Shown here one piece after another: positions 6,693 through 9,932 of a DNA stretch of 32,050 nt. The stretch is from an uncultured bacterium (GTDB taxonomy: Bacteria; Cyanobacteriota; Vampirovibrionia; Gastranaerophilales; JAILCC01). The translations under genes and the position numbers were made by a program. Numbering within the stretch: the stretch's first letter is position 1; each line of letters starts with the position of its first letter. Below the pieces are notes generated by a model. It was not told the DNA's origin and did no database searches. It worked only from the letters and a program-made list of their open reading frames with translations. Where the stretch lies: assembly GCA_949283935.1 (NCBI GenBank), contig CASDUJ010000030.1, forward strand, positions 1 through 32,050. The letters run 5' to 3'.

Positions 6693-8684
6693 ATGTATAA
6701 GAAAATCGCATTATCCCTAATATTATCTTTGTTTATACTGACAAGCAATTCAGTAGCAATGACGCCTGTGGCTTACCAATACTATCTAAGTGCAAATTAT
6801 TATTTAACTATAAAACAACCTGACAAAGCTATTGAAGAATTAAAAAAAGCCATAGCTGCATCACCAAATGACTCAATGTTATACTTAAAGCTTGGAGGTT
6901 TATATAACGATACAGGCAATTGGAAATTAGCAGTTGACACATACAGACAAGCCTCGACAGTAAAACCTGATGACGGTTTCATATATGTAAGTATTGGCAA
7001 CATTTTACAACAAAATCACGATTACCAAGGTGCATTGGAAGCTTATTTAAAATCATACAAACTAGCTCCAAACTATAAATACAATTTATACAACATAGCT
7101 AATGTAAAAACAATGCTTCACCAAAATGATGAAGCAATAGAATATTACAAAGAATTTTTGGCCAACTACCCAGATCATATTGAAGCAAGAAAAAGCTTAG
7201 CTTCTTTGTACATGGAAAAAGAAAATTACGAAGAAGCTGCAAAAGAATACAAAATTATTTTCAAAAAAAATCCAAGAAAATTCAATGATTTTTATCGTTT
7301 CGCATTTGCATTAATGAAAAATAAAGACTACAAAAATGCAATAGAAGGATTTAAACAAGAAATAAAAATTAATCCGGATAATCCTAGAGCATATGCGAAT
7401 TTAGCTGTTTCATATTTAAATTTGCCGATTCCCAACAAAAAATCAGCTTTATTGTGTTTTGAAAGAGCCTTTAGCTTGGGAGGTGATTTTGATTATTATC
7501 GTTTTGACTATGCCAATTTATTAAATGACGAAAGCAGGTTACAAGAGGCCCAAGAGCAATATGAAAAATACATTGCCAAATATCCTGAAAACGATTACGC
7601 ATATTATAATATAGGAATTATTCAACAAAAGAGCAAAAACTATGACAAAGCAATATTAAATTTTGAAAAAGCCATAAAAATAAACTCTCAAAATCAAGAT
7701 GCCAAAATTCAACTAGCAACATCTTATCAACTACAAGGCAATTACAAAAATGCTAATAAAATTTATGATGAAATACTAGTTAAAAATTCAAACAATCCTG
7801 AGATATTATACAATGCGGCATTGTCGTACGAAAACGAAAAGAAATATCCAAAAGCCATACAATATTTTGAGCAGGCAATATCATTAAACAATGATGAAAA
7901 CATCAAAAAAGAACTTGCCAACTGCTACACAAATTATGGTGCCAATTTAATTAATCTTGAAAAATACAAAGATGCAATAACTCAATACGAAAAAGCATTA
8001 AAAATTGAACCAAATAAACAAGCAGCATTTACTGGATTAGCTTATTGTTATCAAAAGACAGGAGAGCACGAAAAGAGTACCGAACTATATGAAAAATCAA
8101 TTTCCCTAAATTCCAAAAACGAAACAGATTTTGTGGCCTACGGAAATTCTTTAAACGCACTTGACAGAACAGATGAAGCAATAGGTGCATACAAACAAGC
8201 TCTTGAAATAAATCCAAATCTAGCTGCTGCTCACGAAGGTTTAGGAGATGCATACTTAAAAAACCAAATGCACGACGAAGCGATGAAAGAATACGAAATC
8301 TGCATAAAACTTGCTCCTGAAACAGTAAGTGCGAACATAAAACTTGGAAATATGTACAAAGAAAATTTAGACAATCAAAATGCATTGAAATATTACAATG
8401 CAGCATTAATAATTGATTCAAATAATGTAGCAGCTTTACACAATAAAGCTGCTACATTATTTGACTTAGGCAAAAATAATGATGCAAAAAATTGTTATTA
8501 TAAAATACTAAGTATTGACAATAATTTTGCAATGGCTCATTACGGGTTAGGGGTAATAGCAGAAAAAGAAAAAAATTACAGAGAAGCCATATCTCAATAC
8601 GAAAAATTTATTGTAATAACAGATAATGCTTATTTAAAAAACACAATTCAAAGAAGAATTTCGCTTTTAAAAACACGAATATAA
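6693..8684 (+). CDS. Exported tetratricopeptide-repeat protein, 663 aa
   Basis: Residues 1-22 form a Sec signal peptide ending SVA. After that the protein is almost entirely tandem TPR units, with room for about 18 of 34 residues. Typical units include AIEYYKEFLANYPDHIEARKS, whose pattern (Tyr/Ala at fixed spacing, Pro at the unit end) recurs to the C-terminus. No enzymatic domain is attached. TPR solenoids bind other proteins; in an exported form they are often scaffolds for envelope assembly, polysaccharide secretion or pilus systems, but no neighbour identifies the partner. A TATAAT lies at 6664-6669, and no clear ribosome site precedes the ATG. The gene converges on the kinase-like gene at 8693 with only 8 nt between stop codons. 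Confidence 0.88.
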   Translation: MYKKIALSLILSLFILTSNSVAMTPVAYQYYLSANYYLTIKQPDKAIEELKKAIAASPNDSMLYLKLGGLYNDTGNWKLAVDTYRQASTVKPDDGFIYVSIGNILQQNHDYQGALEAYLKSYKLAPNYKYNLYNIANVKTMLHQNDEAIEYYKEFLANYPDHIEARKSLASLYMEKENYEEAAKEYKIIFKKNPRKFNDFYRFAFALMKNKDYKNAIEGFKQEIKINPDNPRAYANLAVSYLNLPIPNKKSALLCFERAFSLGGDFDYYRFDYANLLNDESRLQEAQEQYEKYIAKYPENDYAYYNIGIIQQKSKNYDKAILNFEKAIKINSQNQDAKIQLATSYQLQGNYKNANKIYDEILVKNSNNPEILYNAALSYENEKKYPKAIQYFEQAISLNNDENIKKELANCYTNYGANLINLEKYKDAITQYEKALKIEPNKQAAFTGLAYCYQKTGEHEKSTELYEKSISLNSKNETDFVAYGNSLNALDRTDEAIGAYKQALEINPNLAAAHEGLGDAYLKNQMHDEAMKEYEICIKLAPETVSANIKLGNMYKENLDNQNALKYYNAALIIDSNNVAALHNKAATLFDLGKNNDAKNCYYKILSIDNNFAMAHYGLGVIAEKEKNYREAISQYEKFIVITDNAYLKNTIQRRISLLKTRI

Positions 8685-8692
8685 AATTATTT

Positions 8693-9835
8693 TTACTGCT
8701 CGAAACTCATTCTTTCAATGGGTAATACAAAGCTAAAAATACTACCTTGCTGAGCATTTGGGGAACACCATATAGCTCCATTTAGTTTGTGGACTATCTT
8801 ACGAGCTATAGGCAAAGACAATGCAGTTCCATCATATTTTTTAGCAATTAAAAGATTTTTTGTTTGATACTCATCAAAAATTTCACAAACCTTATCAGAA
8901 GGAACTCCAATACCTTCATCAGAAACATCAACTCTAAGATATGATAGCTCACTATAGCCATTAGGAATTTTTATTTCGTGAAATTCTAAAGTTTCTATAT
9001 CAGGATGTGTAAGAGAAATTTTTATATTGCCATTGCTAGAAAATTTAACAGCATTATCCAAAAGAATTTCTAAAATTTGAGCAAAAGCATATTCATCGCT
9101 AAAAATATTTCTTTTCTCAATTTCTGAAGATACAGAAATAGGAATACCTTTTTTTTCCGCTATGTTTTTGTAATTTTCTGCAACAAAATCAACAATCTTT
9201 AGACAATCAAAATTTTTAAAATTAAATTCTTTTTTGTTTGCATCAAGCGAAATAATATCGAAAACTTTATCCATAAGGATTTTAACTTTTTTATTGTTTG
9301 AATTAATAATATTTATATATTTTTCTTGTTTTTCGTTTAATTCACCACAAACTTTATCAAGCAAGCTTTGCGAAAAACCAATAGCCGCATTTAAAGGAGT
9401 AATAAAATCAAATTTCAAATTACTAATAAAACTATCCCTATTAGAAACAAGCATTTTGGTAGTTTGATAATCATCTAATAGATTTTGCAATTCCAAAAAT
9501 TTATTGGAAAGGGCCCTCACAGAAACAATGGTTTTTGCAGAGCTATGAGCATCATAAGCAGTTACGTCAACAAATATATTTTCACCACTTTTAGTGGTTG
9601 CCTTTAAAATTGTACCATGATTTAGACCAATAATTTTATTAAATCTTTCAAAATCTTCAGCAAAAAGTAGCATTATATTTTTGTTTTTTATTTCAGATTT
9701 TGTATAGCCAAACAACAACTCTGCTTTTTTGTTCCAAACAACAATATTACGCATAAAATCCAGCACAATAATAGCATCAGGGAAATTGTTATATATATTT
9801 TCGTTATTATTAAAAATTATGTTTTTTATACCCAT
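8693..9835 (-). CDS. PAS-domain histidine-kinase-like protein lacking the phosphoacceptor His
   Basis: The layout is PAS domain (about residues 12-110), a short linker, a DHp-like helical hairpin (about 130-195) and a HATPase_c domain (about 235-375). The protein has no membrane segment, so it is a soluble sensor. The H-box region reads NLKFDFITPLNAAIGF where the family has SHELRTPLN: Phe at residue 142 replaces the phosphorylated His. In the ATPase domain the N-box (ILLDNAVKF) and G1 (DEGIGVP) are kept, but G2 is altered (GTALSLPIA instead of GTGLGL). It is therefore probably a pseudokinase that binds ligand or nucleotide and regulates by contact. The ATG at 9835 is preferred over the TTG at 9853. 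No response regulator is adjacent. Confidence 0.87.
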   Translation of the reverse strand: MGIKNIIFNNNENIYNNFPDAIIVLDFMRNIVVWNKKAELLFGYTKSEIKNKNIMLLFAEDFERFNKIIGLNHGTILKATTKSGENIFVDVTAYDAHSSAKTIVSVRALSNKFLELQNLLDDYQTTKMLVSNRDSFISNLKFDFITPLNAAIGFSQSLLDKVCGELNEKQEKYINIINSNNKKVKILMDKVFDIISLDANKKEFNFKNFDCLKIVDFVAENYKNIAEKKGIPISVSSEIEKRNIFSDEYAFAQILEILLDNAVKFSSNGNIKISLTHPDIETLEFHEIKIPNGYSELSYLRVDVSDEGIGVPSDKVCEIFDEYQTKNLLIAKKYDGTALSLPIARKIVHKLNGAIWCSPNAQQGSIFSFVLPIERMSFEQ

Positions 9836-9847: not shown

Positions 9848-9932
9848 CAGCAAAAATACAAATAAAATAACTGTAAAGAAATAAAGGAAATTAGAGCGAT
9901 TTCAAGCAAAAGGAAATTTTTATCATTTTTTG

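Follow-up and report, generated by a model that had tools for sequence, protein, structure and literature searches.

A gene in a 32,050-nucleotide stretch of DNA from an uncultured member of the Gastranaerophilales (the whole stretch is referred to here as the window) encodes a soluble PAS protein with a histidine-kinase body and Phe in place of the phosphoacceptor His. Alignments and gene trees show, at the level of sequence, that it represents in this genome a family of kinase-dead histidine-kinase homologues that spans the order and is inherited vertically. The window protein is very probably kinase-dead and maintained. It probably functions in signalling through contact with a partner and not through phosphate transfer.

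Domain organisation of the window protein

The features of the gene and its product are summarized in Table 1. The reading frame starts with ATG, although an alternative TTG start is possible at 9853, and contains no internal stop. Pfam detected a PAS domain, HisKA (26.1 bits, slightly below the cut-off of 26.9) and HATPase_c (64.7 bits). A single PAS domain precedes the DHp in both the Pfam result and the structural model, and no obvious transmembrane segment was found when the sequence was inspected by eye. The AlphaFold2 model was built on a 10-row alignment; its confidence was lowest, N-terminus aside, in the ATP lid (about residues 321–340). Foldseek matched the model to PAS-kinases, phytochrome kinase-related modules, GacS/RetS, HK853-RR468 and DivL (4q20). 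The DHp hairpin and the HATPase_c fold were thus both recognised by Pfam, AlphaFold2 and Foldseek, and the kinase fold is predicted to be intact, in agreement with a sequence-only reading of the same DNA, which had described an intact frame with a PAS domain and a kinase body.

Table 1 Positions in the window of the pseudo-histidine kinase gene and its features.
Feature	Position	Strand	Basis
CDS, 380-aa soluble PAS-DHp-CA pseudo-histidine kinase	8693..9835	-	ORF, Pfam, AF2 mean pLDDT 81
PAS domain, residues 12-105	9521..9802	-	Pfam PAS + PAS_9, AF2 model
DHp helical hairpin, residues 111-198 (helices 111-159 + 168-198)	9242..9505	-	AF2 secondary structure, HisKA match
Phe142 (TTT) at phosphoacceptor His position	9410..9412	-	translation, alignment
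DHp base, residues 147-182 (helix 1 C-terminal part, loop, helix 2 N-terminal part)	9290..9397	-	alignment; PMC4211667
CA (HATPase_c) domain, residues 206-376	8708..9220	-	Pfam, AF2 model
N-box Asn261, present in window protein	9053..9055	-	alignment
G1 motif DEGIG, residues 306-310 (D306xGxG), present	8906..8920	-	alignment
G2 motif GTALSL, residues 336-341; second Gly to Ala	8813..8830	-	alignment

The H-box of the window protein, SNLKFDFITPLNA, aligns with the canonical SHELRTPLNA, and Phe142 stands at the HisKA His, as the sequence-only reading had stated. Among the features of functional HisKA kinases, the H-box His and a GxGLGL-type G2 are missing, and the N-box Asn and the G1 DxGxG are present. 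The same reading had recognised the N-box and G1 and had given G2 as GTALSL, which proved accurate; the Ala replacing the second Gly of G2 is common to all four members from the window's own family of the order (f1; the other families are likewise denoted by f and a number).

Orthologues across the order and loss of the kinase motifs

The protein has one-to-one orthologues throughout much of the order Gastranaerophilales (Melainabacteria). When the proteins of 192 genomes from the order were searched, 131 genomes had a match at E ≤ 1e-35, and almost every match was a full-length orthologue; this is an undercount, as two genomes scored as absent (G015 and G028) carry the gene directly upstream of the ABC gene described below. 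At the same threshold, the window query had no match outside the order, and a query from f5 run on 48 genomes from other orders of the class retrieved mostly larger multidomain kinases. The closest named relative, 73% identical, is encoded on a contig of a Candidatus Gastranaerophilales bacterium from horse faeces (G001:C34).

We aligned 113 sequences, namely 112 orthologues and the window protein, obtained from whole-protein searches. The loci of an earlier set had been picked partly by the peptide NEKQEKYI, so that agreement there is meaningless; the 113-row set is free of this bias. The residue at the His site, counted as sequences and not as evolutionary events, was N in 67, G in 16, H in 9, S in 8, T in 5, F in 2, P in 2, and I, D, Q and L in one each. 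Thus, 104 of the 113 lack the phosphoacceptor His. Another histidine kinase of the same genome (30 orthologues) served as an active control, and His, HELRTP and the N-box Asn were each found in 30/30. Since His is lacking in 104/113 versus 0/30 in this active paralogue family, its absence is not due to chance. The window genome (1.73 Mb) has 12 HisKA and 23 receiver-domain matches; H-boxes were read in 11 of the 12 HisKA proteins (all but L248), and His was present in ten, with the window protein being the only one without it.

The sequence-only reading had named His in close relatives and a sequencing error at this codon among the grounds that would refute it, and neither applied. The members of f1 have F, F, P and L at the site. 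A sequencing error as the source of Phe142 was ruled out by the independent genome G001, whose orthologue agrees in both the Phe and the GTALSL.

The kinase motifs are unequally preserved among the families. A complete set (HELRT/S, N-box, G1 and GTGLGL) was found only in the two f5 members, and f5 resembles, by its motifs, an active ancestor. The ATP-site motifs are still largely there in f3, f4 and f7. In f2, a gut family and the largest of the families, G2 is gone in 92/92 and the N-box Asn in 73/92. As a counterpoint to the His-less reading, His is again found in seven f2 members (G024, G043, G054, G063, G077, G109 and G167), without the N-box Asn or G2; these are probably N-to-H reversions or cases where His was retained without a kinase. 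The ATP-lid lysines 332–333 (KK; window 8837–8842) are kept even in f2, where G2 is gone, and the CA domain may accordingly be a site for binding something other than ATP.

These motifs bear on two readings of the function. A kinase that is still active and phosphorylated on another residue would be in keeping with the N-box Asn and G1 of the window protein. However, the site has no conserved substitute phosphoacceptor (N, G, S, T, F, P, L, Q, I and D occur), G2 is altered in the window and the ATP site has lost most of its motifs in f2, making this reading highly improbable. The sequence-only reading had also suggested signalling by binding or by nucleotide state. Nucleotide-state sensing is possible for the window protein, with its intact N-box and G1, but as a function common to all families it was ruled out, because f2 has lost G2 and, in most members, the N-box Asn, to the extent given above.

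In two gene trees, each family of the order formed one clade, consistent with vertical descent. The best tree groups the His-bearing f5 with f4 (88/76); if this tree is right, His was therefore lost several times independently. An alternative tree that unites every His-less family in a single clade was not rejected (AU p 0.195), so that a single loss of His below an early-branching f5 is compatible with the data. We propose that the protein family derives from an active soluble PAS kinase of a type still seen in f5, that His was lost once or several times, and that the ATP site would then have been free to decay, furthest in f2.

Selection, gene neighbourhood and candidate mechanisms

The dN/dS ratio had a median of 0.09 and a maximum of 0.18 over 117 pairs with usable dS, nearly all of which come from f2. 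By domain, the medians were 0.034 (DHp), 0.077 (PAS) and 0.101 (CA), indicating purifying selection that is strongest in the DHp. Pairs that involve the window copy are at or close to saturation at synonymous sites, and for this copy we infer selection from 58–73% identity and intact frames. Stops flagged inside some orthologue matches are probably terminal stops, the open frames being full length. A pseudogene or decaying kinase was ruled out by the dN/dS values and the full-length intact frames. The proposal of a maintained pseudokinase was thus borne out by the order-wide His-less orthologues, the low dN/dS, the full-length frames and a nearly invariant DHp base.

This base (GFSQ...EKQ.KY..IIN.N) is the most conserved stretch of the alignment, and F154, K169, K172, Y173 and N180 are identical in 113/113. 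Mean entropy of the pseudokinase and the active control was 1.65 versus 0.13 at the start of helix 1, 1.38 versus 0.0 in the H-box, 0.99 versus 0.75 at the end of helix 1, and 1.84 versus 0.38 at the end of helix 2. Only in the loop and the start of helix 2 was it lower in the pseudokinase (0.89 versus 1.39). Judged from these alignments, constraint is inverted relative to the control, a single active paralogue family: the H-box is variable and the hairpin base is kept. The end of helix 1 and the start of helix 2 form the response-regulator docking module of HK853 and DivL (PMC4211667), to which the conserved base corresponds by sequence position only.

The best single mechanism, which we favour tentatively and at somewhat under even odds, resembles that of DivL, with a PAS sensor that lacks catalysis and offers its DHp as a docking site for a receiver. 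The PAS domain would sense a cytoplasmic signal and determine which conformation the DHp dimer adopts. A receiver domain, most likely that of a response regulator whose gene lies elsewhere in the genome, would then dock at the base of the DHp bundle, where it would be sequestered, have its phosphorylation state read or have its access to a real kinase controlled, all without phosphotransfer. DivL provides a precedent, as it binds DivK~P at the docking module without kinase or phosphatase activity (PMC4211667). The DHp is also the dimer interface, and its conservation could reflect dimerisation or the binding of another kinase.

One such alternative is a modulator that pairs, through its DHp, with an active kinase present in the cell and inhibits or activates it, as in RetS/GacS and RocA/CovS. 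The DHp being the most constrained domain would suit this role, among PDB entries the DHp is matched best by RetS structures, which also rank high in the fold search, and RocA is a pseudokinase that acts through CovS (PMC7028121). However, conservation is concentrated at the base of the hairpin; the start of helix 1 and the end of helix 2, which are also in the bundle, vary, and no linked kinase gene was recognised. We regard heterodimerisation as unlikely.

A dedicated phosphatase is also a rather unlikely reading. Here kinase activity would be gone, and an acidic residue at H+1 and a hydroxyl or amide residue at H+4 would still place a water molecule for the dephosphorylation of a partner regulator. 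By analogy with CheX and NarX, it has been proposed that HisKA phosphatases have an acidic-plus-amide pair beside the His (PMC3510030). In the alignment, E or D occupies +1 in 107/113, S, T or N occupies +4 in 105/113, and both occur in 99/113, including D143 and T146 of the window protein. However, +4 is Ser in 88/113 and not the usual Thr or Asn, Lys in several f4 and f7 members, and Ala in one f1 member. Phosphatases of the HisKA type usually work with a nucleotide-bound CA domain, a state that probably cannot form in f2. Moreover, phosphatase activity is absent from DivL, the best studied of the pseudo-histidine kinases (PMC4211667).

The sequence-only reading had noted that no response regulator is paired with the gene. 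Consistent with this, there is no receiver gene in the window or on its contig, all 23 receiver-domain matches of the genome, 20 of which exceed the Pfam cut-off, lying elsewhere, and no response regulator was recognised among the recurrent neighbours of the orthologues, including those of the His-bearing f5. The next gene on the same strand in f2 (91/92) and f7 (3/3) encodes a UgpC-family ABC importer ATPase. The two genes often overlap by 8 bases, which suggests translational coupling, and farther neighbours change. A UgpC/MsmX-type ATPase gene directly follows the pseudokinase gene at L082–L101, L069, L072 and L079. An rsmI-like gene, identified by eye, lies directly upstream in f3, f5 and part of f7 (L066, L069, L072, L073, L080 and L081), perhaps the ancestral arrangement. 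Both links are gone at the window locus, with the ATPase gene located on a different contig (C37). In the window, the pseudokinase gene converges with the gene of a 663-aa TPR protein (6693–8684, + strand), with the stop codons 8 bases apart (8684–8693); the pair also adjoins in f1_G002 (L062) and not in f1_G003 (L064).

The conserved gene order raises the possibility that the pseudokinase is a partner of the UgpC/MsmX-type ATPase and adjusts sugar import to a cytoplasmic signal by touching it. This is improbable: the linkage is not found in f1, f3, f4 or f5, no such ATPase turned up at E ≤ 1e-50 in G003 and G019, both of which carry the pseudokinase, and shared transcription does not imply contact. 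It is similarly a long shot that the receiver-docking protein is an order-wide hub in gut Melainabacteria, in which the DHp would serve as a fixed binding platform, ATP handling would have been lost in one family, and the receiver signal would be coupled to the general sugar-import ATPase of the same operon.

Significance and comparison with known systems

Characterised bacterial pseudo-histidine kinases are few and mostly from single lineages. Here, one orthologous group contains a whole series, from a complete kinase (f5) through loss of His with intact ATP-site motifs (part of f4) to loss of both (f2), and stays under purifying selection. The series therefore offers a natural test of non-catalytic histidine-kinase function and of the DHp surface responsible. 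The protein is also common across an order of gut bacteria in which signalling has hardly been studied. Pseudo-histidine kinases as such are already known from DivL, RocA and laboratory-evolved ChrS. The present family is a variant undescribed in the literature searched (pseudo-histidine kinases, and Melainabacteria or Gastranaerophilales signalling), in which coverage of subscription papers was poor.

DivL of Caulobacter crescentus (PMC4211667, PDB 4q20) shares the PAS-DHp-CA architecture, the replaced phosphoacceptor His, the retained kinase fold and the conserved response-regulator docking module. However, its orthologues fix Tyr (Ala in one species), whereas the site is free to vary in the present family, and they keep the N, G1, F and G2 boxes, whereas G2 is altered or lost here. 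DivL is also alphaproteobacterial and has several PAS domains, in contrast to the one PAS of the window protein. RocA of group A Streptococcus (PMC7028121) is likewise kinase-like, works without a phosphoacceptor His and has altered CA residues. Unlike the window protein, RocA is a membrane protein, still has H246 and has a known partner kinase, CovS.

RetS of Pseudomonas aeruginosa is a large membrane hybrid protein. It has a similar DHp-CA fold (PDB 6dk7, 7n0e) and modulates GacS by direct contact, but its DHp keeps SHEIRTP, His included. The ChrS frameshift pseudokinase of Corynebacterium glutamicum (PMC9491836) is kinase-dead and still promotes signalling through another kinase; it is, however, a laboratory-selected CA truncation and not an evolutionary lineage. 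The histidine-kinase-related domains of plant phytochromes and the His-less ethylene receptors are also maintained kinase-related modules, some without His, and phytochromes were among the top Foldseek matches of the window model. In contrast to the present family, these are eukaryotic photosensory or membrane receptors and are not close relatives.
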